From the NCBI GenBank assembly GCA_026398275.1, contig JAPLTF010000015.1, forward strand, positions 1 through 64,000: a stretch of DNA of 64,000 bases, in the 5' to 3' direction. The position numbers were made by a program, and so were the translations under genes. The notes beneath the pieces are model-generated. The model saw nothing but the letters and a program-made list of their open reading frames with translations, did no database searches and had not been told where the DNA came from. Below are positions 25,514 through 43,154 of the stretch, piece by piece; position 1 is the stretch's first letter, and each line of letters opens with the position of its first letter. Source of the stretch: Verrucomicrobiota bacterium (GTDB lineage Bacteria > Verrucomicrobiota > Verrucomicrobiia > Chthoniobacterales > Terrimicrobiaceae).

Positions 25514-25558
25514 GCCACCTCTTGAAAACAAACGGACGACAAGCGACCAAACCAAACA

Positions 25559-25641
25559 GGGAGCACAGGCGTCTCGCCTGTGAAAGACGCTGGCCTGCGC
25601 TTGCAGAGTCAGCGCCCAAACGGGCGGGACGCCCGTTCCCC
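25559..25641. repeat. Palindromic element, copy 4 (short form)
   Basis: The gap 25514-25728 holds this element. Its left end, GGGAGC, is followed by ACAGGCG-tct-CGCCTGT. Its right end is ACGGGCG-gga-CGCCCGT followed by TCCCC. The middle has weaker complementarity. The two arm hairpins differ by one base pair, so each stem is perfect but the outer arms pair imperfectly. Frames through it give the peptide words GTGVPPV and HRRDACAP. The remaining 87 bases up to 25728 show nothing I recognise. Confidence 0.65.
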
Positions 25642-25728
25642 GTGGTCGCAGCAAAGCCCGGATTTTTTCAAAAGGTGGACTAATAACCGGGGAGGAAATC
25701 ATGCGATGCGAGGGATCTGCTGCGGCCA

Positions 25729-28700
25729 CTATGGCACAAGCTCCACCCGGTAGAAACGCTGTTGTATGCCGGGTGAAGAATCGCGGAACACCGATTCGGC
25801 CGACCCGGAGGACACGGGGACGGTAATCGTGGAACCCGGCAGGTCGGTGAGCCATGCGGGGTCGGCCAGCGAATTTTTATAGGTCACCCGGTAGGTTTTT
25901 CCGGGAACTGCCGGCCAGGCGACTTTGAATTTGCCGCTCACATCCGGCGCGAGGACGGCGCGGAATTTCCGGTCCGGAGCGACGAAATCAAATTTGTCGT
26001 CGCCGATGGAATCCTTGATCGCCGCGGTCGGGAGGGCGAGGAATTCAGCAGGATCGAGATTGCCGTTGTCCACGGTTTTTCCGGGGGCCTGGGCGCCGAG
26101 GATTCCGCCGTTTGCCGTCTGGAATGCAGCGCTCGCGATGTAGATTGTAGGCGGAACGGAGCCGAAGGCATCCACCAGATCAATGGTTCCTTCCAATTGT
26201 CCGGATGGGTTTTTATTCACCTGGCCCGCGAGGCTGGTTCCTCCGGAGTTATGCCACTGCCAGCCGGCCCAGCCGTTCGTGGATTCCATGCAGAGGACAG
26301 CGGCAGTTGAAGGCACCGCCACCAGTCCGGCCTTGCCCCAGCCGGGAAGGACCGGATTTGATGCCGAGGGAAGGAGCTGGTTCGAGACGAAAATAAAGTG
26401 GTCATTCCCGGCCGCCGAGCCAGCATACCACGTCGCCACGTAGAGCTTCGTGCCACGGATCGATGCGTAGACCGTCATCCCGGGGTTGCTGAGCAGGTAG
26501 CCTGCGGGCGCGGTGCCCGACATGGAGAACGCCGGCGGGTCAACGCCCGGCGCGGTGCTTGTGATGGAAAATGCCGCGGTCGGCGACGAGGAACCCGCGC
26601 TGTTCACCGCGATGATTGTGTAGTTGTAGGACGTGAGGGGCGAGACCGTCGTGTCGGCGTAGGATGCCGTGGAGCTGGTTCCGATCTCGGTTCCGTCGCG
26701 GAGAATCCGATAGCTGGTCGCATCGGGCGATGCCGTCCATGTCAGGTTGATCCGGGTGCCCGTGGGCGAGTCGCCCGCGAGATTTGCCGGCGTGGCCGGG
26801 GGGACATTGATCGCGCCGTCATCCTCGACAAAGACGTGCTGGATCTCCGACTTGCTGGTGTTGTTTTTCGAGTCCGTCGCCTCGATGTAGTAGTCGAGCA
26901 GCTTGCCGCGGAACCCGGCGACGTTGGCATTGCTGATCTTGACGAAATAGTAATCCGCAAGCTCCGGCGGCGTGATGAAGTAGTCGATCTGGCCGTTGTT
27001 GGCGGCGGCGTTGAGCTCGGCGCGAGTCTTCGGCAGCACGCGCTTGTTCATGGGGATCGTGATCCACGGACCGACGTCGCTTCCGCCGGCATACGTTTCG
27101 TTCTGGTTGTTCGCCATCGTGTTCACCCCGTCGTTGTCGACGCGCACTTTGACGCTGATCGCGCCGACGCCACTGATGTCGTAGGCGTGCGTCCAGATGT
27201 AGAATTCCGATGGCATCTTTTTCAGGTAGCTCGTGTTCCCGCCCGGGATGCTGTTGAACCAGCCGAATGTGTAGGCGCCGGGATTCCACGGAAACCGCTG
27301 CGGGCGCAGGACGGATGGCGGCGTGCGGTCGTTGGCGAGGCGGGCATTGACGAACGGGCTGAGCTTTTCGATTGCGCGGCGGGTGGCGAGCGACTGCTTG
27401 ACCTCGTCGTCATTGCCGAGCCCGCCGTAGTAGTTGAACCCGGAGTCGAGGCCGCCGAGGTAAATGTGCCAGCCAAGCTCAACATCGTTCGGGATTGTCC
27501 GCGCGCCGTTCCAGTCATACGGTGCCTGGATTTTCCAAGCCTGCACGCTGCCGCCCTCATCGACGAGCATCTGCTCGGCAGTCTCGCACCAGTTGGCACC
27601 GGTGATCACCGGAGCCCAGCTCCAGAACTTGAGCGCGAAGCCGGGTGTCTCGAGGTCGACGACCGTGCCGGGCACTTTGCTTGTGCTGTTGGGTGCCCCC
27701 ACCGGCGGTTCAATCCACTTCAGAAAGTAGGGACTGCCGTAGTCGGACTCCGGAAAGATCCACGCGCCGTCCTCGACGTGCGCGTATTCTCCCGCTGGCG
27801 GTGGCTTGGCGTTCACGAGATCCTGGATCGCGCAGACCGCGTAGCCGTTGCTGCTGCAGCCGCTGAAGAACGACGGGGTGGATTCAAAATACGAACTACT
27901 GCCCCCGCCCCATGCATTGTCTCCATCGGTGCAGGGAAGGACGACGACCGGGCGGGACGGATCGTTGGCGAAAGGCGCGATGTTGTTGGAGATCATCCCG
28001 ACCTGCGCGCCGCTGTAGCCGGCGACGTAGCTCAGCGCGTCATCGCTCGGCACGACGATGAGGGATTTCTCCTGGCCGGTGGCCGGGTTCACGTATTTCA
28101 CGCGATGGAGCTGATACGCATGGGGCGAGACATTCCATGCGGCCTGCCCGGGATTCGGCTCGTTGAACCACCAGCCGCTCACCGGCGACGGACCGCGCTG
28201 GTCGGCTTTGTTCGGCGGGCTGGATTTTATCTGGAAGCTGCCCGTGGGATTCGCCTTCGTGTTGTAGGTCGGACACGTGCGGCTCAGGTGGTGGCTTGCA
28301 ACGATCGTCCACTGATATCCCTCGTCGGCCAGCACATCGATCATCTCCGAGGTGAACGCCATCTCGGTCGGAAAAAATCCTTTCGAGTGGTCGCTGAGAT
28401 CGGAGTTCCCGCCCCACGCCTTCCACCACGCCTGCTTGAAAATTTGAAGCTCCTTGCGGAAGACGGCCTTCGGAATCAGGGGCCCGAGCGAATGGTGGTA
28501 GGTGAAGCCGACGAGATCCATCCGGCGGCTGCCGCCGGCGAGGCCCGCGCCGGGATTTCCGGCCGTCAACCAGTTACGTGCCTCGCGGTTGCCGCTCCAC
28601 CAACCATTGCCATAACCAAGCTGGTTGTTGGTTCCGAGGCTGCGGATGTTGTCGATCAACGACCCGCTGTAGCTCATGCAAAAGCCCGCCTGGGTGGAAA

Positions 28701-29055
28701 GACCGGCCAGCGAGTTGCGCGGGCCGCTCTGATACGCGGCCTGACGGTCGGGCAGGCCGAAGATGTCGGTCAGATTGTTGTCGGGATGCCCGGATGTCGT
28801 TCCGTAGAGCTGCCCGCTCTTCAGGACAATCGAATCCCATGCATACTGCATCCGGCTGGTCTGGCTGCCGTTCCCGTTCCACTCCGGCCAGTAAATCGGC
28901 TGGTGGTTGTGCCAGAAGCGCGAGACGTAAACGGAGCTGTCCGCGCCGGCGATGCCAGTCGAAAACCCCGCCAGCACCACGACGAACATGATGCCGCAAT
29001 GACGCCACCACCCAAGTCTTGAACAGTTCAACTGTTTCCAGAGAAATGCAGTCAT
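25729..29055 (-). CDS. Secreted GH57-family glycoside hydrolase with FN3 domain
   Basis: 1108 residues from 29055, or 1086 from an ATG at 28989. A signal peptide (IMFVVVLAGFSTGIAGA) precedes the GH57 core. Region 1 is SRFWHNHQPIYWPEW, matching the HxHQP signature. A candidate catalytic glutamate is in GFFPTEMAFTSEM (about residue 228), and SDDALSYVAG and WSWAPVITGANW lie further on. A fibronectin type III domain (ATPANLAGDSPTGTRINLTW, about residues 770-850) and a C-terminal beta domain follow. GH57 enzymes are retaining alpha-amylases, pullulanases or branching enzymes. The family fits this alpha-glucan island; the exact specificity is open. A candidate LacI operator lies at 29022-29036, inside or just upstream of the coding region depending on the start. 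Confidence 0.82.
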   Translation of the reverse strand: MTAFLWKQLNCSRLGWWRHCGIMFVVVLAGFSTGIAGADSSVYVSRFWHNHQPIYWPEWNGNGSQTSRMQYAWDSIVLKSGQLYGTTSGHPDNNLTDIFGLPDRQAAYQSGPRNSLAGLSTQAGFCMSYSGSLIDNIRSLGTNNQLGYGNGWWSGNREARNWLTAGNPGAGLAGGSRRMDLVGFTYHHSLGPLIPKAVFRKELQIFKQAWWKAWGGNSDLSDHSKGFFPTEMAFTSEMIDVLADEGYQWTIVASHHLSRTCPTYNTKANPTGSFQIKSSPPNKADQRGPSPVSGWWFNEPNPGQAAWNVSPHAYQLHRVKYVNPATGQEKSLIVVPSDDALSYVAGYSGAQVGMISNNIAPFANDPSRPVVVLPCTDGDNAWGGGSSSYFESTPSFFSGCSSNGYAVCAIQDLVNAKPPPAGEYAHVEDGAWIFPESDYGSPYFLKWIEPPVGAPNSTSKVPGTVVDLETPGFALKFWSWAPVITGANWCETAEQMLVDEGGSVQAWKIQAPYDWNGARTIPNDVELGWHIYLGGLDSGFNYYGGLGNDDEVKQSLATRRAIEKLSPFVNARLANDRTPPSVLRPQRFPWNPGAYTFGWFNSIPGGNTSYLKKMPSEFYIWTHAYDISGVGAISVKVRVDNDGVNTMANNQNETYAGGSDVGPWITIPMNKRVLPKTRAELNAAANNGQIDYFITPPELADYYFVKISNANVAGFRGKLLDYYIEATDSKNNTSKSEIQHVFVEDDGAINVPPATPANLAGDSPTGTRINLTWTASPDATSYRILRDGTEIGTSSTASYADTTVSPLTSYNYTIIAVNSAGSSSPTAAFSITSTAPGVDPPAFSMSGTAPAGYLLSNPGMTVYASIRGTKLYVATWYAGSAAGNDHFIFVSNQLLPSASNPVLPGWGKAGLVAVPSTAAVLCMESTNGWAGWQWHNSGGTSLAGQVNKNPSGQLEGTIDLVDAFGSVPPTIYIASAAFQTANGGILGAQAPGKTVDNGNLDPAEFLALPTAAIKDSIGDDKFDFVAPDRKFRAVLAPDVSGKFKVAWPAVPGKTYRVTYKNSLADPAWLTDLPGSTITVPVSSGSAESVFRDSSPGIQQRFYRVELVP
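29022..29036. promoter_or_regulatory. Candidate LacI operator A
   Basis: AACAGTTCAACTGTT, two perfect 7-base arms around a central C, preceded by TTG so that TTGAACAGTTCAA is also a palindrome. It shares 14 of 15 bases with the site in front of the LacI gene. It lies at the 5' end of the GH57 gene, 33-47 bases upstream of the ATG at 28989 or inside the first codons if the ATG at 29055 is used. Confidence 0.6.
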
Positions 29056-29931: not shown

Positions 29932-29954
29932 TTGAACGGATCAATTCCGTTCAA
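29932..29954. promoter_or_regulatory. Perfect 9-bp palindrome between two island genes
   Basis: TTGAACGGA, five bases (tcaat), then TCCGTTCAA. It spans the stop codon of the GH13 gene to the right. Outside it GCCCTT and AAGGGC can extend a stem with bulges. It shares TTGAAC/GTTCAA with the LacI candidate sites. It may be an operator or an mRNA-stabilising hairpin; it has no T-run for a terminator. Confidence 0.5.
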
Positions 29955-32900
29955 GGGCCGACTTTGACGCGGTAGAACTTGTTTCCCGCGCCGGGAGTCG
30001 GGTCGGTGTAGGTGCCGGTTGTGAGGCCGGTAGCCATGGGGGTCCAGGTGGCGGCGTTGAGACTGGCTTTGGATTCGACGGTGTAGGACTTCCCGGCCAC
30101 CGCATCCCAGGTGATGGTGATCCCGCCGCCGACCGCTGCGGTGATCGAGGTGATTTTGAAAATCGAGCCGGCATCCAGGGGATTTGTGCCGGCGGCGACC
30201 TCGGAGGCATTGTTCATCCCGTCCCCGTCGTTGTCGCCGGCGGAAGTCAGCGAGAGCGTCTGGGAGCTGGAGGATGTAGGGCTGGAGGCGGAGTTGTAGT
30301 CGTTGGGATTCAGCGTGGTGACGGCTGCCGTAGCGGTCACCCCGGTGGGCAGGCCCGTAAGCGTGTAGGAGGTAAATGTCGTATCGCGGGTGACAACGAT
30401 GCTGTCGCTGCGGGTCACAACAAGACGGTAAACAGGCTGGAGTCCCTCGGAGTCAGTCACCGCGTTCCAAGTGAAAGTCACCGAACCGTCGAGAGCATAA
30501 GCAGCAACTGCGGGGGCGGCAGACGGCGTGGAGAGCGATGTCACGTCATAAACCTTGAGATACTGCGGCTCGAACGGCGCGAAGGACCAAGCCTGGTCCG
30601 TCCCGGGAATCGGATTGAGCAAAACATAGAGTCCGTTATTGACGAGGTCATCGCGCGTATAACCGGACGAACCCCACAGCAATGTGTCGCGGCGGGTCGG
30701 ATACTCGTTGTTCGGCCCGAGGTAGGCCGCGATGTTGCGGGCATTGTAGCGCCTTCCGGATTTCAAACCCATGTTGTCGGCAAGGCCTGCGGGGATTCCG
30801 AAGGTGTTGGATTTTTGGTTGTAACGGTCGAGATTTTGGAACGCGAGCACCACGTCGCTGGTGGCAGGTGAAGCCCCGGGACTTTGGTATTTTGCGGTGG
30901 CGAAAATATTTGCGTCCGCCGTATTGGAACCGTTGGGATTCAAAAACCAGCGGTTCGAGGAGCGCAGGGCGGGGCTGAACCCTCTCGCAAGCCCGACTCC
31001 CGAGTAAGCGGGGATCAGGTTCTTGACGCCGAGGGTATTGTTCGCCCAGGCAGTCCATTGCGGCTGCATCGAGTTGTAGCGCTTGAAGTGCGGGATGTTT
31101 TTCCCGAAATTCGTTTCGTAGTAATCAAAGCTCAGGCTGTTGGAGGTTCCGATCTCCTGCCCATACATGATCATCGGTGCGCCATCGATCATGCCGCCCA
31201 CGGCATAGCGGATGAAAGCCTGCCAGGGATCGGCGTAGCCAGCCTCGTCGTGGGAGGTATTGTTCAGCAGGACAAGCCCCTGTCCGTAGGATCCGCGACG
31301 GCCTTCGAAAATATCGCGGTAATTTGTGGTCGTGGTGGCGGACTGGAACGGGAAGACGATGTTTTCGTTGAGAAGTTCGAAGTGCCGGTTCGAGCGATAA
31401 GTCACGGCCCCGCCATCGAGGGACTCGGTCATGAAAACGAAGCTCCACTTGTAGCTGCGCGCAACATTGATCGTGTATTCCCAGAACTGCGGCGGCATGC
31501 CCTGCCCGAAATCCGCACGCAGACCGTCGATGCCTTTGTAGGATTGGTCAGAGAGCGAGCTTCCTGCAGGGAGTCCGGTTTTTTCCAGCCAGTAGGGAAC
31601 GTAGCGGGCGAAGTATTTCCACACCGTGCGGGTAACTGCCCCGGTGGATCCGGACGCGCCGCTCAGCGAGGAATAATCGTACGTGTCCGCTTCGTTGCCC
31701 ACTGTGGCGCGACTGCTATCGGCTCCCGGATAGCCTGTGACCAGCGTGGCGTAGCGTCCAAAAAAGAAATCGATCACGTCCGCCCATTTCCCGAAATCGT
31801 CCCGGTCGGGTGCGCTGGCCACATCGGAGGCGGAATTCGCAGGGACGGAATAGGCTGTGCCCGCACCGCCTTTGGTGGAATAGAACCGCGCCTCGCGGTC
31901 CTTGATTTTGTCGGTTGGCGACCAGCCCGAGGTATTGAACCCTGCGGCTGTGAGCAGGTCGATGCCGGATTGGTCGATCTCGCAATCATAGGCCGAGTGA
32001 TTGAACGGCGCATCCAGAATCACATTCACGCCCTTGTCGTCGGCCGCAGCGACAAAGTTCTGGAATGCGGTCATCGAACTTGCCCGCGAATTTCCCTGGC
32101 TCATCTGCTCCATGACCTGGAAAAAGTTCTTCACGGCATAAGGGCTGCCCGGATCGTATGGTGTGCCGCCCGGGGCCTCGCGGCCCTCGATGCCATTCGG
32201 ATGGATCGGTTGGAACCAGATCGTGTTGGCACCGGCGCCTTTCAGGTAGTCGAGGTTCCACCGCGTGTTGTCGGTGAGGCTTTCAAACGTGGACCTCTGC
32301 GCAAACGTCGGGCCGGTCGCGTCCACGTTCAGGACGTTCACTTCGTAGATCCGCAGGTTGCGGGACAACTGCGGGGCGACCGTGATGCAGTGGTCGCGAC
32401 GGCCGTTGGAGGAATACCAGTTCCAGGTTGAGCTTCCGGATGTGCGGTAGCGCGCGGTGAGGCGGTAGGCACCGGTCTTGTTGGCGTTCAGTGTGACCGT
32501 ATAGACCCCGTTCGATCCGCTCATCGGTATGGCCTGAAAATACCCGTTCGCAGGGTAGGCACCCGAGACATACCCCTGGGGTTTTTCATCCGGAGGGGCG
32601 GGCGGCACGATCCCGTCGTCAATACCATCGCTGTTCGCATCGGCGGCGGCCCGACTGCGGTTGTTGAGATCGGTCCAGACTTCCGCCTCGGTTGTGTTCG
32701 GGGAACCGGTGGAAAATGTGATAGTTACTGGAACCGATTCTCCCGCCACCTCGTCGATATAGAGTTTCGTCGTGGTGTAATTAGCATTGAGGGTCCCCGT
32801 GGAGGCTGTGGCGACCGACAGCCCGTCGATGGTCATGCTATACGGGCTCGCCTGCGCATCGCCCGCACTGAGCGATTGGGCGCTGGCTCCCCCGGAGCTG

Positions 32901-33427
32901 TAGAGATAGGTCGTGGATTTGTTGGAAAAGGTGACCTCGAAATAATACTGAACGACCGAACCCACGGCGGGCATCTTGAGGGTGGCTTTCCAGAATTGGT
33001 TGCCTCCGTTGTTGGCGGCAAAAGACAAAGGGATAGACAGCCATGCGCCGCTGGTCCCGAAACGATAGTGGAAATTTCCGCCATTTTGATCGTTCGCTCC
33101 GCCGTCCCGCCAAACCCCTTCGTAGAACGAGGTCGAAGCTCCGGGATCGGGGCTCACGGGAGACCGCATCGAAATCCCGCCGGGGATGTCGGTGGTGTTC
33201 GAGGGAATATGCCAGAGGTTCGGGACGATCTGCGCCTGGGCGGAAGCGAGGGCGAAGAGCAGGCAGAAGGCGATGGCGAAAAAGGTAGATCCCGGAAAAA
33301 CAGTGCGCGCTCCGCGCGGGATGGAACGAACACGGCGGCACAGCGCCGTGGCTACAGCGCTGATGTGATTTTTGCGCTGCGCGTTTGATGCTCTGCTGGC
33401 GCTTCGGATGGCTCCCCGCCTACACAT
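29951..33427 (-). CDS. Large secreted GH13 enzyme with FN3 and calcium-repeat domains
   Basis: About 1158 residues from an ATG at 33427. A signal helix (FFAIAFCLLFALASAQA) starts only about 50 residues in, because a hairpin repeat lies between. Starch-binding-like beta domains are followed by a GH13 barrel (LRIYEVNVLNVDATGPTF). Candidate catalytic residues are D in GLRADFGQG (about 638), E in FMTESLDG (about 665) and D in NNTSHDEAG (about 727). Behind it lie an FN3-like domain, a DNDGDGMNNASEVAAGTNPLD repeat (thrombospondin-3/EF-hand type), and a C-terminal beta domain ending FYRVKVGP. That ending resembles the tail of the GH57 and giant proteins, perhaps a shared sorting or binding module. 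Substrate is most likely starch or a related alpha-glucan. Confidence 0.82.
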   Translation of the reverse strand: MCRRGAIRSASRASNAQRKNHISAVATALCRRVRSIPRGARTVFPGSTFFAIAFCLLFALASAQAQIVPNLWHIPSNTTDIPGGISMRSPVSPDPGASTSFYEGVWRDGGANDQNGGNFHYRFGTSGAWLSIPLSFAANNGGNQFWKATLKMPAVGSVVQYYFEVTFSNKSTTYLYSSGGASAQSLSAGDAQASPYSMTIDGLSVATASTGTLNANYTTTKLYIDEVAGESVPVTITFSTGSPNTTEAEVWTDLNNRSRAAADANSDGIDDGIVPPAPPDEKPQGYVSGAYPANGYFQAIPMSGSNGVYTVTLNANKTGAYRLTARYRTSGSSTWNWYSSNGRRDHCITVAPQLSRNLRIYEVNVLNVDATGPTFAQRSTFESLTDNTRWNLDYLKGAGANTIWFQPIHPNGIEGREAPGGTPYDPGSPYAVKNFFQVMEQMSQGNSRASSMTAFQNFVAAADDKGVNVILDAPFNHSAYDCEIDQSGIDLLTAAGFNTSGWSPTDKIKDREARFYSTKGGAGTAYSVPANSASDVASAPDRDDFGKWADVIDFFFGRYATLVTGYPGADSSRATVGNEADTYDYSSLSGASGSTGAVTRTVWKYFARYVPYWLEKTGLPAGSSLSDQSYKGIDGLRADFGQGMPPQFWEYTINVARSYKWSFVFMTESLDGGAVTYRSNRHFELLNENIVFPFQSATTTTNYRDIFEGRRGSYGQGLVLLNNTSHDEAGYADPWQAFIRYAVGGMIDGAPMIMYGQEIGTSNSLSFDYYETNFGKNIPHFKRYNSMQPQWTAWANNTLGVKNLIPAYSGVGLARGFSPALRSSNRWFLNPNGSNTADANIFATAKYQSPGASPATSDVVLAFQNLDRYNQKSNTFGIPAGLADNMGLKSGRRYNARNIAAYLGPNNEYPTRRDTLLWGSSGYTRDDLVNNGLYVLLNPIPGTDQAWSFAPFEPQYLKVYDVTSLSTPSAAPAVAAYALDGSVTFTWNAVTDSEGLQPVYRLVVTRSDSIVVTRDTTFTSYTLTGLPTGVTATAAVTTLNPNDYNSASSPTSSSSQTLSLTSAGDNDGDGMNNASEVAAGTNPLDAGSIFKITSITAAVGGGITITWDAVAGKSYTVESKASLNAATWTPMATGLTTGTYTDPTPGAGNKFYRVKVGP
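33331..33355. repeat. CTGTGC-loop hairpin repeat, copy 2
   Basis: CACGGCG-gcacag-CGCCGTG followed by GCTAC. The 7-bp stem is perfect. It lies inside the 5' part of the 29951-33427 reading frame, between the only upstream ATG and the signal helix. Confidence 0.65.
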
Positions 33428-33534: not shown

Positions 33535-36500
33535 TCATGGCAGGGAGATGGTGACGCGGTAGAAGCGCTTGGGTGCGGTGGTGAGGTCGGTAGCGGATTT
33601 TGTGGTGCCGTCGCCGGCGATCGGGGAGCCGAGGGGGGACCATCCGACGAGGTCGGTGGAGACCTGCGGTTGGTAGAGCCGCCCGGCGATGGTCGGGAAC
33701 GAGAAGGTGAAGCCGCCGGTGACCGGAGCGACGGTGGTGAGCGGCTGCCCGCTGGAGGCGGAGTTCGGGTTTGAGCCGAAGAGGAATTCCGTGCGGTCCA
33801 GCAAGCCGTCGCTGTCGGCGTCGCCGGTGCCGTCGCGATTGAGGTTTTGGAAGTTCGCAATCTCCCACGCATCCGGCAGCCCGTCGTTATCGGTGTCCGG
33901 GTTTGTCAGGTCGGTGCCGAGGTCGAACCCGAGCGTGACGACATGCGGCCCGGCGCCGGTGAGTTCGACCTCGACCTGGCTGGTCTGGGCCTGGTTGCGG
34001 CGGAGGACGGTGGTGAAGCCGGTGGCGGCGACATCGGTGGCGGCTGTGTTGATCTGCGGAGCCTGGACCCAGGCGCGGACGGTGTCCGTCGCGCCGGTGT
34101 TCGTGAGATTGACGCGGGTGGGAGCCGGGTTGGTTTCCACAAGCCCGACCTGCCCGCGGGTCATGAGGTCGAGGAGGTTGGGCGAGAGTCCGAAGCGGAC
34201 GTAGGCCTTGTTGAGGCCGGTGAGCGTATAGGTGGCTTCGAGGCGCTCGGACGCGGCATTCGTGAGGCGGATCGTCTTGGTGACGCCGCCATTGGTGAAT
34301 GTCCATCCAGTGCCGCTTGGGGCGGCGGTGACATTATATACTGCATTGACCCCGGCGTTGCTGGTGGCGTTAGACGTGCTCACCGTCCACCAGTCCTTGA
34401 ACCCGCTGGTGCGGAAGGCCGAGATGGCTGTCGTTGCCCCGACAAAGTTGCTCGCCCCTTCATCCTCGGTTTCCGTGCCGCTGTAAGATGCAAAGTTGCC
34501 CGCGACCTGCCAGAGCTTTCCGGTGTTGGGATCGCGCATCCAGGCGGCGGTCATGCGGCCGCCCTTCGCCTCGAACAGCGCAAAGACCCGGCTGTTGAAG
34601 AGAAGGAATTCCATCGCGCCGTCGAGGTCCACATCCGACGTCTCAGCGCCGAGCGTGGACGATGTCGCGGAGTCCGCCCACTGCTGGACACGGGCGTAGA
34701 CTTTTGCGAAGCGGGCCTGCGACTGGGAGAAGCGGGCGAAGTCCGAAAGCGCCTGTCCGGAGTCCGTGTCGGGGTTGATGTAAGCGCCGGTGCTGAACTT
34801 GCTGAGGTCGCTGTTCGTCGTGTTGTGGAAGGCGGTTTCGAACATTGCTCCGTGCAGGACGGCATTCGAGAGGTCCCCGAGGCCGGAGGAGAAGGCGGTG
34901 CCCGAGAGCGACAGCCAGGCGGCATTCGAGTGCCCGCTCACGCCAACCTGCCCGAAGGCATCGGTCGCGCCGAAGTTGGTGGCTGCAAGGCTCACCTCTT
35001 TGCCCGATCCGAAATACCAGTTGTCGTAGTTTTCCTGCGTCGCGTGATCGATCCAGTCCTTGGCTGACTGCACGAGGTTCTGGGCGACTCCCCGCTCTTT
35101 TGTTCCCCAGGTTGTGGAAATATTTCCATCCTGTCCCTTATACGGAACCTGGCCGTTGATGATATTCCCGGCGGTCACGACGCGAATCCATGGACGGCTC
35201 GCGAGCCAGCGGACATTTGTGTCGTAGGATGTGGCCTTGGCGTTGCTGGCAAAGTCGCTCATGTCGCGCCAGAGGACGACGACCTGATCCTGGATGTCGC
35301 TCCGTGCGCGGCGGGAGAGCAATTCGCGGACAGGCTCGGAGGCACCCTCATCCTGGGTCTGGTCGAGATACTCGGACGTCACGTCGTGGATCGGGAAGAT
35401 TTTGACTCCGTTCACCTGATTGATCCGGAAACCGTCGGTGCCGAGGGCCGAGGTGCGGCCGAACCATTTGACGAAATGCCTTGTCTGGTCGGCGAACGTG
35501 TAGCCATAGCCCATGCCGGAAATCAGGCCGAGGGTCTCGTCGTCGAGGACCCGCTCCGGAGCCCAGAACGCCTGCCGGGAGGCGGCGGTCGTGCCGTTCC
35601 CGTAGATGGCGTCGAGGAAATTGTTCGCGAGCCCGATGTTCGTGTTGTTGAAGGCCTGCGGAAAATATTTTGGAACATGGTCGGCGAACGTCGATCCCAG
35701 GATCTGGGCCTTGCCGCCGGAGATCAGATTACGGATTCGCGTATTCATGGACGGCCCGTCATTTGACGCGCCGGGGGCGGGGTTTTTTGCCCACTGGAGG
35801 GCAGACGCGAGCGTGGGAGTGATGTGCAGGGTGAGCGGGGCGTTATAGGCCTCGTGCGTCTGCAGCATCCGAAAATATCCGGCGGCACCGGTGGCGGCGC
35901 CATCGTGGACCAGGCTCTGCATCGTGCTGCCCGGCTGGATCGCCTGGTTGCCGTGGGCGAGAAGCATGACCTTGGCGGCCTTGCCGCGGTCGTTGGTGGT
36001 CGAGCGCCCGAAGTAGCTCGTCAGTTTGCCGTTCAGGCTGATGTTCGACTGGTCCTTCCAGTAGTCCGAGGCGAGCCAGTCGTCGCCGATCGTATCGCGG
36101 ATGTCGTTGCGTCCAGCGATGTCGCCGGCGCCGCCAGTCTGCGTGCCATCGCGGGTGGTGAAGACCTGGAAGTTCAGCGTGGCCGGATCGCCGAGCCATC
36201 CGGCATCGATCAATGCCTGGCGCTGGACGCCGATCTCCACGGCGTCATATTTGCTCGACCAGGCGATCTCGCCAAGGCCGTTGGCGGCGATGCCGCGGCG
36301 CACGACGCCGTGCGCATAGGGATCCTGCACGTAAGTCGTCGTGTTGTCCGCGCGGTCCAGGTCCACCGAGACGCTGCCGGAATTCGTGGCGTAGGCACCG
36401 ACGACGACTTCCCAGCCCATGTCAGTCGCGATATCCACGCTGTCCGGAAGCGCCCGCTCGCCGACTGCCGGATTGCCGGTATCGATGACGATGTAGGCAT

Positions 36501-39500
36501 CCACCTCGCCCTGCTCGGCGTAGGCGACAAGGTCGAGGAAATCGATACGGAAATAGACTTTGCCGTCGCCACCATCGGCAGCTGCTCCGCCGTCGCGGAA
36601 CGAGAAGGCGACGATATCCCGCGAGCTGTCGTAGCCGTTCGTGCGATAGACATCCGCGCCCTGGCTTCCGCCCTCGTTGTATTCGTCCAGCGCGAGGAGG
36701 TCGGTGGATTTCCAATCGGTAAACGTGCCGACATGGATCGTCCCCTCCCCTCCTCCGTTGCCAATCACGGTCACCTGGGTCGGATTCGTACCCGCGGCCA
36801 GCTCCGCAAGGTTGTTGAACCCGTCGCCATCCGGATCCCCCGCCGCGCCGTTCTTCGGGTCGCCCGTCAGGTCGGTCCGGTAGGAAGTCGTGCCGTTGTC
36901 GAGCGGATCGAGCCCGTATTGGACCTCCCACCCGTCAGGCAGCCCGTCGCCGTCGGTGTCGGCTTTGAGCGGGTTCGTCTCTGTCCAAAGCTCGCCGCCA
37001 TCATGGATGCGGTTATTGTTCGTGTCGCCATCGATGCGCCCGTTGAAATTCTTGTCCTCGCCATATCCGTCGGTAAGCCCGTCGCCGTCGGAGTCCGCCT
37101 TGGTCGGGCTGGTCTCGGTCCAGGTTTCAAACGAATCGATATTATTGTTCGGCCAATCGCCGGCGTTCGGGCGGACCGCTACAGACCTGTATTGATCCCT
37201 TGAAGCGGCGAGCGGCAACGGCTTCCCATCGCCATCCGTCCAGCCGTTGCGATTCGCATCTTCGATCCCGTCCAATATCCCGTCGCCATCGGAATCCGGG
37301 TTGGTCGGATCGGTGACCGATCCGGCCGCCTGGCGAGTCCGGCTGTCGCCTGCGCTCAGGTTCCCCACGCCGGGGACAATGGGATCGGCATTTTCCACGA
37401 CAGCGTAGAGCGGAGGATCCATGTCCCCGATGAAATTTGGGAATCCGTCCGAATTGGTGTCAACCACGGTGTTGGTCGCATTTCCCGCCGTCCGCCAGCC
37501 GACTTCGAGTCCGTCGGGGAGCCCATCGCCGTCGGAGTCCGGCGTGTTCGGAAGGCTGCGTCCGTAGGCGTTATAGACATGCACGTCGCCGTTCTTCCAA
37601 GTTTCCGGATTTCCAACCGGGAGGGCTTTCGGTGTGGCCTCGTCGATGTCGAGAATCCCGTCGTTGTCGTCATCGTTGTATTCGTTGGTATCAGTCGTGA
37701 CGCTCTGGCGGAGGACGGCGGTCGCCGTGCGCGCCGAGACGACGGGATCTGCCCCGCCGGTGGACGCGACGAGTTGGTAGCTTCCGGGCGCTGTGATGCG
37801 CCACGGGAAATCCCATGTCTTCGTGTTGCCGCTGGTTGTGACGACCGTGCCGTCCCAAGTGCCGTTGGCGTTGGAATCCACGAGCGACGGTTGCTCGTTG
37901 GCATCCCAACTGCCATTCGCATTCACGTCGGTGAAGGTTTCTCCGGAATCGTATTGGTGGTTGTTGTTGGCGTCCACATACGGCTCTGCGCCGTCGAATT
38001 TCCCGTTGCTGTTGGCATCCACGTAGGTCTCGTTCAGGAGTTCGAGGGCAGGCGATCCCGAGAGCGTGAGGTTGCCGACCGGCGCGCTGGTGCTCACACG
38101 GACCGTATAGACCGTGGAATCCGGGCCGGGGCCGTCCGGGATGACAATCTCGACCGGTTTGCCATCCGAGCCGATCTCGGCCGGCTGGGTGATCTGGACA
38201 TAGGGCTTCGTGCTCGGGGCGGCTTTCACGGTGCGGCTGGCATCAATTTTCAGCCCCAGCTTGGTTGCGTCGGGGTAGTCGGCAGGGAATGTGAATTCGA
38301 CATTCAGCTCATGGAGATACTCCGCCACATCGTTGTAGAGGTTTGGCAGCGGGATCGACAGTTCGTAGTAGGCACCGGCTGCGCCAAAGTTGCCGCGATC
38401 GACCGTCCACCCGGTGCGGCTTTGGGTGACCTTGTCGGCGGTGAACGTGAAGCGGTTTAGGAGTGCGGCATCATTGGCGGCCCCGTTGGCTAGCGCCTTA
38501 GAGAAATAGACCTTCATCGTGTAGTTGTCGTCCACGCGGTCGCCGTCGCTCTGAGGCCAGGCGATGTTGACGCGCTCGAGCGGGCCGGCGGTCGCGACCG
38601 TGCGGATCACGTCGGTGAAGTGCCCGGCTTCCGCCGAGAGGCTGAAATTGTGCGAAGACGAGGCCTCCAGCAGACGGAACTTGAGGGTGGCGGTGCCGGT
38701 GGCCGGAATGTTCGTGTAGCGGATGCGCCATTCCTTCTGGAAGGCGCTGGTGACGGCGGGGTTGGCGGTGACCTCGGTCGCGCTGGCCCATGCGACGGAG
38801 GTGGCTTCGTCATAAACCCCATTGCCGTTGAGATCGGTGAATGCCTCGGTGGAATCATGAACGCTGTTTTTGTTGGCGTCTGTGAACGGCTCGAATCCGT
38901 CGCCGTTGCCGTTGAGTTGCTTGGTGGCCGAGTCGTTGTTCCCCGCCTCGCTGTCCGCGATGTTATACCAGAGTTCCTGGACGGTGGGATCGGTGCGCAC
39001 GACGATCTCGTAGCTCGATCCTCCGACAGTTTCCCCGTCGTGCGGGAACGCGACCTCGCCCTGAGGGGTCTGCGCGTCGTAGTAGAAAGTCTGGGTGAAC
39101 GTCTGGTAAAGCGCGGCCTGGGAGTTCGGATTGCGGTTGAGAAGCGCCTTCGCGCGGATGACGTGGAACCCTTCCTTCAGGCCGGTGGTCAGCGAGTTGT
39201 AGTCGTCGTGCTGTTCAAAGGAAACCGTCGAGGGATCGAAATTCTCGATCTTGAACGTCGTCAGCATTTTCAACTTGGGCGCTATATTGGCCTCAGTAGG
39301 CCATAAGGAACCTGCGCCGATCTTGAACACCCCGATTTTGTAACGGCTCGCGCCTGGATCGAAATCGGAAGGCATCGTGGCGCTCGCCCACCAGTTGAAA
39401 CCGGTGCCGCTCTGCGCGGCTTGGTAGTTCATCTCAACGACCTTCGTCTTTCCTCTTCCGATCCCGCCAGCGCCTTCCGGGTAATAACTGGCGTCCGTGG

Positions 39501-41883
39501 TGTAGTAGACAAACATCTTGTAGCCGCCGCCAACCGAATTGACCTTGGCCCAAAGCTTCTTCGTGGAAACATCGTATTGGTTGAAGCTTCCATCGACCGT
39601 CGCTGCGGGGTCGTGGTAAATGAACTCTGCTGTGTCGGAGCTGATGTTGCGGGTTCCATTTCCCATGTTCAGAACCCCGCTGGTCGTAAATGTCTCGGCA
39701 CCAGGAGAGCCTGTGATATTGCGTCCCCCGTCACCGGCCAACTTTGCCGCAAACAATTCCGGATACTGGCGATAGACAAAATCGGGCTGTTCGTAACCAA
39801 CCCATGTGTCCGTGCGAAGGGCCGGCGGGTTGTCCCGCTTCGCGGGGTCGGTGAGCGGCGTCGGATCTGCACCGGTGATATCCCGTATTGTGCCATTGAG
39901 GTCCACTCCGCCATCGAGCTTGAGCATGATATTTTCGGCGGATCCGTCCGCGCGGGCGATGATCGTGAGCGGCGAACCGGATTTCACGATGGGAACGCTT
40001 GTCCGGTAGGTATAGGGCACGGGAGTTTCGCCCGCCGCATAGCCGCGGTTCGAGAGTCCGTAAGGGTTAAACGAAGCGTCGCCATCCGGTCCGTCCTTTC
40101 GGGTTACCGTGATCTTCTGGACCTCCTCCCCATTCTGGTAAAGCGTGACGGCGGAGTCCGGCCAGTAGGTCGAAAGCTCGGGAGTGCGGTAGCCGAAGAC
40201 ATAGTAGCCGCCCGGCGGGACAATGACCTCGTAAAGCTTGTCCGCGTATTTGTAGAACCCTCCCTGATATGACCCGTTCGGCCCGGTCGCGTATTGATAG
40301 AGATAGGCCCCGCTTGGAAAGCTTGTGGCGAAAGACCGCGCCTGGCCGGAGGCGTTGTTGTCGTTCATCATCACGACCATCGTGACTTCGTCGGCAGCAC
40401 TCCCATTTTGGCGCTCCGATCCACCCGGGTTCCGGTTGTCGCGCCGCTCGTAAGCAAGAAAATCATTGTCACCCCAGCGCCCGACCTGGAACCCGCGCGC
40501 AAAATCCTGGTGAATCTTCAGCAGGTTCGGGATGCGCGGATCGGCAAACTGCCCGAGGAATGCGGTGTTGGCATGGCGGGGAAACGCGCCTCCGGATTCC
40601 CCGAGCGTCTCCGCCTGGTAGTAGCCATCGGTGTAGACCAGCCCGAGCCCTTCCCTCGTGTAGTAGAGCGCGTGCTGCAGATGCCGCATGGACGCGTAGT
40701 CGTTGTCATGGCTGGTCGCGTGCATCACGCCGAGGGATGATGAAAATCCGCCTCCTCCGGGAGAATCGAGCCCCGAGAGCGTCCCCCACGGGCTGCCGAG
40801 AACACCGTTGAGCTTCGACCGCAGCTCGTTGTCCACCAAACGCATCCCCGCATCCCAGTAGCCGGAATATCCCGGAGGAGAGCCGAGGTGCTCGCCAAAA
40901 ATCATCGCGTCGTCGCGGCCTTTTTCCGTATCGAACACCGAGTCCCGGTGGTTCGCATCCGAAAACCCTCGCGTGAGGTTGAACTGCCGCTGGACGCCGC
41001 CGATGTAGCCCGCATCGCTGGAGTCCTTGTCGGCACCGCTCTGCTTTCCAAAAAAGTAATCCGGCACATGCTTGACCGCATCGAGCCGGAGCCCGTCCGC
41101 CTTCGTGCGATCCATCAGCCAGCGGGCGGCGCGGATCAGGTAGGCGCCGACATCTTCTTTGAACGCATTGGGGTTCGCATCCATGTCCGCCTTCGTCACG
41201 TTGCCGAAGCCGACATACTGGCCGCTGCTGTTGATGCAGTAAAACTCCGGGTTGTTTGGGTGGCGGACAAATGAGTATTTCTCGTGCGTCGAGCCCTCGG
41301 TCTTTCCGAAATTCGCATTCGGCGTCTCCTGCGCGATGTCGATCAGGTCCGCCAGCCCGAGGTTCTGGACCTGCCAGGCCGACCCCCAGTCGCGGGTGTT
41401 GTCCCACTTGCGGTAAAACCCGTCCTCCGTGACGCGCAGGTGAAAATCCTCCGGCACCATCCCGGGATACACGTCGATCGGCGTGTTTTCGTTATACCCC
41501 GGCACGTCGAACGCCCGGTGGTTCACGACGTTGTCGAAATAGATCCGGATCCCAAACCGGTGAGCCACCTCGACCAGTTGCAGCAGCTCCGCCTCGGTCC
41601 CGTATCGCGTCCGAACCGTGTCGCGCTGAAGCCTGCTCCCCAGATCGAGCGGATCCCACAAATCATACCCGACCGAAAGCCCGCCGCTCCCTTTTGTCGG
41701 CGGCGGCAGCCAGAGCGACGAATACCCAGCCTCAGCCAGCTCCGGCATCTTCCGCGTGATCTCCGCCCAGCTCGTGTTGAAATACTGCAGCATCGCCTCC
41801 GCGCGCGCCTGCCCGCAGCCAATGATCGAAAGCAGAAATCCTGCGAGGATTCCTCTCCATCGATATGCGGGTTGGTCGGTCAT
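33535..41883 (-). CDS. Giant secreted GH13-GH57 fusion glucan hydrolase (2782 aa)
   Basis: One uninterrupted frame. The N-terminal signal (GILAGFLLSIIGCGQARA) contains a lipobox-like IIGC, so it may be a lipoprotein. A GH13 alpha-amylase follows: nucleophile D in GLRLDAVKH (about residue 266), acid E in IFGEHLG (about 329) and D in ATSHDND (about 390). The middle holds beta domains and many acidic calcium-type repeats (for example SDGDGLPDGLEVG, SDGDGILDGIEDANRNG; about residues 1080-1130 and 1370-1700). A DOMON/glucodextranase-like module lies near 1710-1930. From about 1965 a GH57-like domain appears, with LLAHGNQ, ADHVPKYFPQ and FWAPERVLDDETL (catalytic-type E near 2104). The chain closes with another acidic repeat and a beta domain ending FYRVTISLP. 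It likely degrades large alpha-glucans at the cell surface. A GTG 33 bases upstream is an alternative start. Confidence 0.85.
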   Translation of the reverse strand: MTDQPAYRWRGILAGFLLSIIGCGQARAEAMLQYFNTSWAEITRKMPELAEAGYSSLWLPPPTKGSGGLSVGYDLWDPLDLGSRLQRDTVRTRYGTEAELLQLVEVAHRFGIRIYFDNVVNHRAFDVPGYNENTPIDVYPGMVPEDFHLRVTEDGFYRKWDNTRDWGSAWQVQNLGLADLIDIAQETPNANFGKTEGSTHEKYSFVRHPNNPEFYCINSSGQYVGFGNVTKADMDANPNAFKEDVGAYLIRAARWLMDRTKADGLRLDAVKHVPDYFFGKQSGADKDSSDAGYIGGVQRQFNLTRGFSDANHRDSVFDTEKGRDDAMIFGEHLGSPPGYSGYWDAGMRLVDNELRSKLNGVLGSPWGTLSGLDSPGGGGFSSSLGVMHATSHDNDYASMRHLQHALYYTREGLGLVYTDGYYQAETLGESGGAFPRHANTAFLGQFADPRIPNLLKIHQDFARGFQVGRWGDNDFLAYERRDNRNPGGSERQNGSAADEVTMVVMMNDNNASGQARSFATSFPSGAYLYQYATGPNGSYQGGFYKYADKLYEVIVPPGGYYVFGYRTPELSTYWPDSAVTLYQNGEEVQKITVTRKDGPDGDASFNPYGLSNRGYAAGETPVPYTYRTSVPIVKSGSPLTIIARADGSAENIMLKLDGGVDLNGTIRDITGADPTPLTDPAKRDNPPALRTDTWVGYEQPDFVYRQYPELFAAKLAGDGGRNITGSPGAETFTTSGVLNMGNGTRNISSDTAEFIYHDPAATVDGSFNQYDVSTKKLWAKVNSVGGGYKMFVYYTTDASYYPEGAGGIGRGKTKVVEMNYQAAQSGTGFNWWASATMPSDFDPGASRYKIGVFKIGAGSLWPTEANIAPKLKMLTTFKIENFDPSTVSFEQHDDYNSLTTGLKEGFHVIRAKALLNRNPNSQAALYQTFTQTFYYDAQTPQGEVAFPHDGETVGGSSYEIVVRTDPTVQELWYNIADSEAGNNDSATKQLNGNGDGFEPFTDANKNSVHDSTEAFTDLNGNGVYDEATSVAWASATEVTANPAVTSAFQKEWRIRYTNIPATGTATLKFRLLEASSSHNFSLSAEAGHFTDVIRTVATAGPLERVNIAWPQSDGDRVDDNYTMKVYFSKALANGAANDAALLNRFTFTADKVTQSRTGWTVDRGNFGAAGAYYELSIPLPNLYNDVAEYLHELNVEFTFPADYPDATKLGLKIDASRTVKAAPSTKPYVQITQPAEIGSDGKPVEIVIPDGPGPDSTVYTVRVSTSAPVGNLTLSGSPALELLNETYVDANSNGKFDGAEPYVDANNNHQYDSGETFTDVNANGSWDANEQPSLVDSNANGTWDGTVVTTSGNTKTWDFPWRITAPGSYQLVASTGGADPVVSARTATAVLRQSVTTDTNEYNDDDNDGILDIDEATPKALPVGNPETWKNGDVHVYNAYGRSLPNTPDSDGDGLPDGLEVGWRTAGNATNTVVDTNSDGFPNFIGDMDPPLYAVVENADPIVPGVGNLSAGDSRTRQAAGSVTDPTNPDSDGDGILDGIEDANRNGWTDGDGKPLPLAASRDQYRSVAVRPNAGDWPNNNIDSFETWTETSPTKADSDGDGLTDGYGEDKNFNGRIDGDTNNNRIHDGGELWTETNPLKADTDGDGLPDGWEVQYGLDPLDNGTTSYRTDLTGDPKNGAAGDPDGDGFNNLAELAAGTNPTQVTVIGNGGGEGTIHVGTFTDWKSTDLLALDEYNEGGSQGADVYRTNGYDSSRDIVAFSFRDGGAAADGGDGKVYFRIDFLDLVAYAEQGEVDAYIVIDTGNPAVGERALPDSVDIATDMGWEVVVGAYATNSGSVSVDLDRADNTTTYVQDPYAHGVVRRGIAANGLGEIAWSSKYDAVEIGVQRQALIDAGWLGDPATLNFQVFTTRDGTQTGGAGDIAGRNDIRDTIGDDWLASDYWKDQSNISLNGKLTSYFGRSTTNDRGKAAKVMLLAHGNQAIQPGSTMQSLVHDGAATGAAGYFRMLQTHEAYNAPLTLHITPTLASALQWAKNPAPGASNDGPSMNTRIRNLISGGKAQILGSTFADHVPKYFPQAFNNTNIGLANNFLDAIYGNGTTAASRQAFWAPERVLDDETLGLISGMGYGYTFADQTRHFVKWFGRTSALGTDGFRINQVNGVKIFPIHDVTSEYLDQTQDEGASEPVRELLSRRARSDIQDQVVVLWRDMSDFASNAKATSYDTNVRWLASRPWIRVVTAGNIINGQVPYKGQDGNISTTWGTKERGVAQNLVQSAKDWIDHATQENYDNWYFGSGKEVSLAATNFGATDAFGQVGVSGHSNAAWLSLSGTAFSSGLGDLSNAVLHGAMFETAFHNTTNSDLSKFSTGAYINPDTDSGQALSDFARFSQSQARFAKVYARVQQWADSATSSTLGAETSDVDLDGAMEFLLFNSRVFALFEAKGGRMTAAWMRDPNTGKLWQVAGNFASYSGTETEDEGASNFVGATTAISAFRTSGFKDWWTVSTSNATSNAGVNAVYNVTAAPSGTGWTFTNGGVTKTIRLTNAASERLEATYTLTGLNKAYVRFGLSPNLLDLMTRGQVGLVETNPAPTRVNLTNTGATDTVRAWVQAPQINTAATDVAATGFTTVLRRNQAQTSQVEVELTGAGPHVVTLGFDLGTDLTNPDTDNDGLPDAWEIANFQNLNRDGTGDADSDGLLDRTEFLFGSNPNSASSGQPLTTVAPVTGGFTFSFPTIAGRLYQPQVSTDLVGWSPLGSPIAGDGTTKSATDLTTAPKRFYRVTISLP

Positions 41884-42028
41884 GGGTCCGGGGGTCTGGA
41901 GACAAAGGAATCCCACCAGCTCGGTTACGCAACCGGTTTTACGGTGCCTCCCTTTGCCAACAAAACTTCACTGTCGCCTGATTCTTAAAAATTTAGTTCG
42001 CATTCCCTGTTGGCACAAAGCGAATGTC

Positions 42029-42034
42029 ATTATA
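42029..42034 (-). promoter_or_regulatory. TATAAT -10 box for the giant glucan hydrolase
   Basis: A perfect TATAAT on the minus strand, placed about 150 bases before the ATG at 41883. No good -35 lies at 17 bases; TTGCGG lies at 19. The LacI candidate site directly abuts the box on its upstream side, where a bound repressor would block polymerase. Confidence 0.4.
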
Positions 42035-42047
42035 CAGTTCAACTGTT
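42033..42047. promoter_or_regulatory. Candidate LacI operator B
   Basis: TACAGTTCAACTGTT, with ACAGTT and AACTGT as arms around a central C. It lies between the giant enzyme gene and the divergent regulator gene, touching the TATAAT of the former and 25 bases upstream of the latter's ATG. It could thus control both directions, including the regulator itself. Confidence 0.6.
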
Positions 42048-42071
42048 CATCGGCCGCAACCGCCCACCCAG

Positions 42072-43154
42072 ATGTCCACCCCGAACATGTCAGCGATCGC
42101 CCGCGAGGCGGGAGTCGGCAAAGCCACGGTTTCCCTGGCGCTGCGGAACGATCCGCGGCTCCGGCTCGAGACCCGGCAGCGGATTCAGACAATCGCGCAC
42201 CGGATGGGCTACCAGGCAAACGCGGTGGTCTCGAACCTCATGGCACAGCTCCGCGCGAGCAGAAATCCGAAATACCAGTCGACCCTGGGAATCCTGAACG
42301 CCTCGCACGCCCGCGACAGCCTGCAGAAAAACCTCACCTTCCGGCGCTGGACAAGCGGCCTGGTCGCTCACTGCAGCGAACTCGGCTACGGCACCGATGA
42401 GTTCTGGCTCCACGAACCAGGTGTCGACCCGGAGCGCCTGAAACAGATCCTGCAAGCGCGGAACATCCGTGGGGTGATCATCGCCGCGATGCTCGACCAC
42501 CGGGAACTGCCGCCGGAATTCGACATTCTGTGGCAGGACCTCGCCTGCGTGGTCGTGGGGATCCGTCCCGAGCGCCCCGCGCTCCATTTTGCCTGCAACG
42601 ACCAGTTCTCGACCGCCATGCACACCGCCTGGGAGCTCGATCGGCTCGGGTATTCCCGCCCGGGCCTGATTATCGATCCCGTGATCGAGGAAAATGTCGA
42701 CCATCGCTTCACGGCAGGGTTTTATGCGGGCCGGACGCTGGAGGATCTGAAAAACCGGATCCCCGTTCTTGATTTCCGACCCGAGGCGCAGGGGCTCTTC
42801 GCGGAGTGGATGAAAAAATACGAGCCGGACGTACTTGTCTGCACGCATCCGGAAATCCGGGACTGGCTCGATGCCACCGGGCTCAGATGCCCGCAGGACA
42901 TCGGCCTCGTCCACCTCGATCTGACACCCGAACTCGAAGGCTGGAGCGGCATGAACCAGAACAACGAGGTCGTCGGCGCGTTTGCGGCGGATCTCGTGAT
43001 CGGCCAGCTCCACCGCAATGAGGTCGGCATTCCGGACCGCCCGAAATGCATGATGATCGAGAGCCAGTGGGTCCACGGCTCCACCCTGCGAAATCCGCCC
43101 GGCGTCAAAAAGCCATCCCGCCCGAAAGCCCGGGGAAAAGTGGCCAGAGCCTGA
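42072..43154 (+). CDS. LacI-family transcriptional regulator
   Basis: A 360-residue protein. The helix-turn-helix starts at residue 6 (MSAIAREAGVGKATVSLALRND), with the hinge helix region ANAVVSNLMAQL. The C-terminal two-thirds is a periplasmic-binding-protein-like sensor (RGVIIAAMLD, LDRLGYSRPGLI, DIGLVHLDL). The effector is probably a maltose-type or other glucan sugar, judged from the divergent glucan hydrolase genes. The ATG at 42072 is preceded by a candidate operator, so autoregulation is likely. An ATG at 42024 would put the operator inside the coding region and adds residues unlike the family. The basic tail (KKPSRPKARGK) is unusual. Confidence 0.88.
   Translation: MSTPNMSAIAREAGVGKATVSLALRNDPRLRLETRQRIQTIAHRMGYQANAVVSNLMAQLRASRNPKYQSTLGILNASHARDSLQKNLTFRRWTSGLVAHCSELGYGTDEFWLHEPGVDPERLKQILQARNIRGVIIAAMLDHRELPPEFDILWQDLACVVVGIRPERPALHFACNDQFSTAMHTAWELDRLGYSRPGLIIDPVIEENVDHRFTAGFYAGRTLEDLKNRIPVLDFRPEAQGLFAEWMKKYEPDVLVCTHPEIRDWLDATGLRCPQDIGLVHLDLTPELEGWSGMNQNNEVVGAFAADLVIGQLHRNEVGIPDRPKCMMIESQWVHGSTLRNPPGVKKPSRPKARGKVARA

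Follow-up and report, generated by a model that had tools for sequence, protein, structure and literature searches.

Alpha-amylases fall mainly into two families, GH13 and GH57, which have different folds. In amylase-pullulanases, two alpha-glucan-cutting domains are carried on one secreted chain, and both domains belong to GH13. The other close comparators are single-family enzymes: the GH13 alpha-amylases (1mwo, 3bc9 and the Bacillus type), the GH57 amylopullulanase of Aquifex aeolicus (9ihu, 9jlq, 9ii1) and the 4-alpha-glucanotransferase of Thermococcus litoralis (1k1x).

We analyzed a 64,000-nucleotide stretch of contig JAPLTF010000015.1 from a Verrucomicrobiota bacterium (hereafter, the window), in which one gene encodes a protein, P0001, with a GH13 module followed by a module of the unrelated GH57 fold, in contrast to the paired GH13 domains of amylase-pullulanases. 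P0001 has the N-terminal barrel motifs and the catalytic triad of the GH13 alpha-amylases named above; however, this GH13 module opens a chain of 2782 aa that also contains a second, predicted catalytic module. In a structural model, that second module shares the barrel and helical fold of the Aquifex amylopullulanase (VIA-align Z 29.6 over 335 residues, 3.4 A) at 13% identity, whereas the Aquifex protein is about 480 aa long and lacks DOMON and GH13 modules. The T. litoralis enzyme shares the whole GH57 architecture of barrel, helices and C-terminal beta-sandwich (Z 28.9 over 516 residues), but with 14% identity, an rmsd of 9.3 A over the whole length and no fusion partner.

We consider P0001 to be, with somewhat better than even confidence, an alpha-glucanase that is secreted and has two active sites, combining an endo-amylase with a GH57 hydrolase or transferase. 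The two halves may pair endo-amylase with debranching or exo activity; specificity is not readable from the motifs.

Architecture of the fusion gene

The gene was read as a single open frame of 2782 codons without a stop at 33535-41883 on the minus strand, with an alternative GTG start at 41916. The encoded modules follow one another in the order listed below, the GH57 module lying approximately 1700 residues C-terminal of GH13.

33535..41883, minus strand: fusion gene for P0001 (2782 aa); open frame, architecture kept in relatives
41800..41883, minus strand: signal peptide, aa 1-28; assigned by sequence inspection, without a signal-peptide program
40129..41799, minus strand: GH13 alpha-amylase module, aa 29-585; Pfam, NCBIfam and PDB sequence matches
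37684..40128, minus strand: middle region, aa 586-1400, with no assigned domain in the Pfam scan
36751..37683, minus strand: TSP3-type calcium repeats, aa 1401-1711; PF18884, E 1.1e-9
36049..36750, minus strand: DOMON-like, glucodextranase-type beta-sandwich, aa 1712-1945; AlphaFold2 model
33919..36048, minus strand: GH57 module, aa 1946-2655, comprising a (beta/alpha)7 barrel, a helical part and a C-terminal beta-sandwich; Pfam, AlphaFold2 and profile alignment
33538..33918, minus strand: C-terminal TSP3-containing module, aa 2656-2782; shared with other C-termini

An earlier note on this DNA, made from the letters alone, had proposed GH13 and GH57 in one 2782-residue chain, with calcium-type repeats and a DOMON-like module between them. 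The uninterrupted frame, the Pfam matches to both families and the recurrence in relatives bear out the chain, and the intervening modules were recovered as TSP3-type repeats by PF18884 and as a DOMON-like module by fold.

P0001 is predicted to be secreted. Its signal peptide is type I-like, with cleavage predicted at about ...ARA|EAMLQYFNTSW. When relatives were compared, a signal-peptide-like stretch was conserved and was followed by the mature N-terminus (G/A)EAMLQYFN(T)SW; because this N-terminus comes directly after that stretch, GH13 starts at the presumed cleavage site. A lipoprotein signal at Cys23 was considered and rejected, as the Cys is not conserved in the signal peptides of relatives.

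In the Pfam scan of the middle region, the sole match was a sub-threshold hit to GEVED; Ca-loop repeats of the DxNxNGxxD type occur near aa 1285-1345. Further downstream, aa 1722-1966 (model residues 11-255) aligned in VIA-align with residues 771-1020 of glucodextranase 1ug9 (Z 14.8, 191 aligned), which form the C-terminal domain of that enzyme. Part of the starch adherence protein Sas6 (7uwu; Z 14.5, 16% identity) was a further structural match for the DOMON-like module. These likenesses of the modeled fold suggest that the module may bind glucan (starch). At the end of the chain, the C-terminal module of approximately 120 aa (TSP3 repeat and ...FYRV) also closes the downstream GH13 gene (window 29960-30313) and occurs in a few other proteins of the genome on other contigs and in dozens in relatives; it may serve as a sorting or attachment tag. 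The earlier note called the enzyme surface-held; the features bearing on this are the type I-like signal peptide and the C-terminal module, neither of which is an established anchor.

The GH13 module has a complete catalytic triad

PF00128 (GH13) matched aa 41-344 above its cut-off (E 3.5e-11). The N-terminus also matched NCBIfam alpha-amylase models with E-values down to 8.5e-34, below their equivalog cut-offs, and its best PDB match by sequence was the alpha-amylase 1mwo (E 8.9e-23). The full triad claimed in the earlier note was located at D268 (window 41080-41082), E331 (40891-40893) and D393 (40705-40707), corresponding to the Asp nucleophile, the Glu acid/base and the Asp stabilizer, respectively, and was invariant in relatives (62/62).

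Fold of the GH57 module

The sequence match of the C-terminal part to GH57 is weak. PF03065 matched aa 2043-2219 with 22.7 bits in the whole protein and 25.5 bits for the module, against a cut-off of 21.2, and was matched by all nine of nine homologous modules (best E 1.4e-7). When the module was searched against PDB sequences, as a single sequence or as 9 rows, no GH57 match emerged; the fold search did find one. The GH57-type blocks named in the earlier note, HGNQ and FWAPE, were found at aa 1977 and, as FWAPER, at aa 2106. Together with HGNQ, ILGSTFADH (2061) and ATQENYDNWYFG (near 2281) look like degenerate CSR-1, CSR-2 and CSR-5, as read by eye rather than with a formal CSR profile.

The AlphaFold2 model of the GH57 end from nine alignment rows reached a pLDDT of 60 and was set aside. 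With the 74 rows of alignment A2, the model of aa 1712-2655 reached a pLDDT of 93.1 and a pTM of 0.91, and it contains the incomplete (beta/alpha)7 barrel followed by a helical part that is expected of GH57. In Foldseek, the T. litoralis 4-alpha-glucanotransferase was the best match, followed by GH38 mannosidases and GH57 enzymes. In VIA-align, GH57 structures took ranks 1-18 (Z 22.7-29.6), and the first non-GH57 rows were polysaccharide deacetylases with Z below 20. The profile match, the profile-profile alignment described below and the fold thus assign the C-terminal part to GH57. The bounds of 1960-2560 given in the earlier note were close, although the module is longer, at about 1946-2655. 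That note had named a missing GH57 match, or the absence of both catalytic acids, as outcomes that would speak against it; both were checked and neither occurred.

The structural matches also bear on what this half may do. A GH57 half that is catalytic but acts mainly as a transferase (4-alpha-glucanotransferase or branching enzyme), or on a different alpha-glycoside or acetyl groups, instead of being a hydrolase complementary to the amylase, appears improbable to us. It would agree with the best full-length structural match being 1k1x, C-terminal sandwich included; with the transferases, branching enzymes and alpha-galactosidase known in the GH57 family (PMC6037648); and with a GH57 enzyme that has deacetylase activity besides (PMC8790579). 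However, the Aquifex amylopullulanase is an equally good match for the barrel, and P0001 is predicted to be secreted, fused to an endo-amylase and placed in a degradative cluster, where an extracellular transferase would be less useful.

Predicted catalytic residues of the GH57 module

Canonical Verrucomicrobial GH57s (A3) were aligned with the Aquifex enzyme, in which E256 and D352 are mutated in the solved complexes, and through them the nucleophile and acid/base positions of that enzyme were aligned with P0001. The module matched A3 in profile-profile comparison (E 6.5e-8), and E2110 (window 35554-35556, minus strand) fell on the Glu nucleophile position at strand beta4 (CSR-3) in every alignment. 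D2207 (window 35263-35265, minus strand), at the end of strand beta7 (the CSR-4 position), fell on the acid/base in the A1 alignment, in the whole-set Viterbi alignment and with the D-bearing subset, and one realigned profile gave a gap. Judged by these aligned positions, both catalytic acids are present in P0001, with E2110 as the predicted nucleophile and D2207 as the predicted acid/base. Region 4 reads DMSD without the usual DGE/DYE pattern (RDMSD, against LDGEN in the Aquifex amylopullulanase).

Stand-alone DOMON-GH57 proteins of about 1.14-1.24 kaa from distant Verrucomicrobiota (L207, L208, L210, L211) share the DOMON-like and GH57 modules with P0001, and the three of them that were scanned all had TSP3 at the C-terminus. 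They differ from P0001 in lacking GH13 and in region 4, and at the matching columns they carry HANQ, VPERV and either FDDWEAF or a close variant of FDDWEAF, with D in the 2207 column. D2210 was weighed as the true acid/base, because D or E at 2210 was found in 69 of 74 rows, more often than an acidic residue at 2207; it was rejected, as 2207 is where the profile alignment and the FDDWEAF of the stand-alone relatives place the ancestral acid. Loss of D2207 and gain of E2210 showed no significant compensatory link.

Conservation of the two acids differed. The nucleophile was kept in 73/74 rows of A2, whereas the acid/base position was Asp in 49/74, with at least eight changes on supported branches and N, H, M, W, G, S, Q or A as replacements. 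The four positions Q2133, H2136, G2142 and W2232 were invariant (74/74), indicating that they are kept even where the acid/base is lost. The sole homologue without the nucleophile, from a Puniceicoccaceae single-cell genome (L107), has Asn at 2110 and keeps D2207. Separately, a 402-aa GH57 ORF (L156) has T/G (VLWNTGM) in place of the nucleophile Glu, like described alpha-amylase-like proteins.

Because Asp is present in only 49 of the 74 rows, the GH57 half may be non-catalytic in some relatives. For P0001 itself, we regard as rather unlikely the explanation that this half is a non-hydrolytic, alpha-amylase-like module that holds glucan chains or feeds them to GH13 as the sole cutter. GH57 alpha-amylase-like proteins are a recognized group (PMC6037648), the repeated loss of the acid while the four invariant positions were kept would fit such a module, and the GH57 half evolved faster than the GH13 half in the pairs compared. 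However, both acids are present in P0001 and throughout its 19-row clade (D2207 in 19/19), the nearly invariant nucleophile would be needless for pure binding, and the dN/dS of the barrel was low (pairwise 0.08-0.21, which is rough since dS exceeded 1). A further reading, which we hold to be doubtful, is that the GH57 half repeatedly swapped its acid/base after the fusion, using another acid at 2209/2210 or other chemistry, while the nucleophile and the pocket were kept; some members of the family would then catalyze a reaction different from that of the GH57 enzymes known so far. Overall, we predict that P0001 probably has an active GH57 half beside an active GH13 half.

Inheritance of the fusion in Verrucomicrobiota

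In a protein search among 58 relatives, several families of the same order were found to have full-length homologues, each in a single frame (2847-2979 aa). Profile A1 of the GH57 module matched in 21 of 213 genomes of the order and in 31 of 384 genomes drawn from the class; with A2, 39 of 388 genomes drawn from the phylum matched. A scan of 84,980 named species yielded 80 loci, by title nearly all from Verrucomicrobiota (Chthoniobacterales, Verrucomicrobiales, Opitutales, Kiritimatiellae and Lentisphaerae); distant carriers could be missed, since the scan used two peptide patterns. Cultured carriers included Brevifollis gellanilyticus, Cerasicoccus arenae and Haloferula rosea.

Among uncut GH57 ORFs, 56 of 62 (2620-3383 aa) had GH13 and GH57 in the same frame. 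The fusion is thus inherited as a unit across Verrucomicrobiota, and this recurrence excludes chance or mis-assembly. An assembly artefact, or one frame read through two genes, could call on two loci (L118, L129) in which the GH13 part lies just upstream of GH57 in another frame; we give this explanation virtually no weight, as the 56 single-frame ORFs come from independent assemblies, including those of cultured strains. In one genome (G632), a 26.6-kaa open frame holding the fusion was dismissed as an artefact of bases read as N. A GH13-only homologue of 1375 aa also exists. Together with the stand-alone DOMON-GH57 proteins, it shows that the halves are also found apart, consistent with either a merger of two pre-existing genes or a later split.

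Gene neighbourhood

Four genes lie 3' of the fusion gene on its strand: one of GH13, then another GH57 gene, which carries fn3, and two more of GH13; a regulator gene is divergent from the fusion gene.

29951..33427, minus strand: GH13-family gene directly downstream (Pfam); the start at 33427 is a candidate only
25729..29055, minus strand: separate GH57 gene with fn3; PF03065, E 7.7e-8
23591..25855, minus strand: GH13-family gene of the same cluster; PF00128, E 2.7e-19
21339..23594, minus strand: GH13-family gene of the same cluster; PF00128, E 3.5e-39
42024..43154, plus strand: LacI-family regulator gene; PF00356, E 8.1e-11

Of the 66 loci with enough sequence, 40 have a homologue of the downstream GH13 gene adjoining the fusion; a divergent LacI gene stands beside the fusion in 14 of 54 loci. 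The palindrome CGGTTACGCAACCG at 41922, in the gap between the LacI and fusion genes, was rejected as an operator because its core shows no conservation in the upstream regions of 58 relatives. The separate GH57-fn3 gene carries the motifs HNHQP, GFFPTEMAF and TDGDNAW, which are more canonical than those in the fusion. In two other loci, a second GH13 gene lies directly 3' of the fusion (L025:5979-13793, 2605 aa; L084:6707-10201, 1165 aa). The 2605-aa protein is approximately 38% identical in its GH13 part and has a long C-terminal part without an assigned catalytic domain.

Discussion

If P0001 is a two-site alpha-glucanase, as we favor, the chain would be exported, and the GH13 half would cleave starch or glycogen internally at alpha-1,4 bonds, as archaeal and bacterial extracellular alpha-amylases do. 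The GH57 half would act nearby on the resulting shortened or branched glucans by alpha-1,6 and/or alpha-1,4 hydrolysis, or by transfer. The DOMON-like sandwich may help to bind glucan, and the calcium repeats may act as spacers that make the extracellular chain more rigid. Alpha-glucan sugars are probably the signal to which the adjacent LacI-type regulator responds in controlling the cluster.

The GH13-GH57 fusion is real and apparently unreported so far. No description of it turned up in 5.39 million open-access papers, and the one among them that uses the phrase "GH13 and GH57 domains" refers to separate proteins; prior annotation in CAZy or UniProt or in subscription papers is possible. 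Taken singly, the modules belong to known families; what is new is the joint architecture and its conservation throughout the phylum.

Retention of the fusion across the whole phylum indicates a benefit of having both modules act on one substrate, and it provides a natural system in which to test in-chain synergy on starch or glycogen. The repeated acid/base changes in the GH57 half form a natural series on what this residue is needed for. In addition, the architecture gives a lead to the function of very large Verrucomicrobiota proteins.
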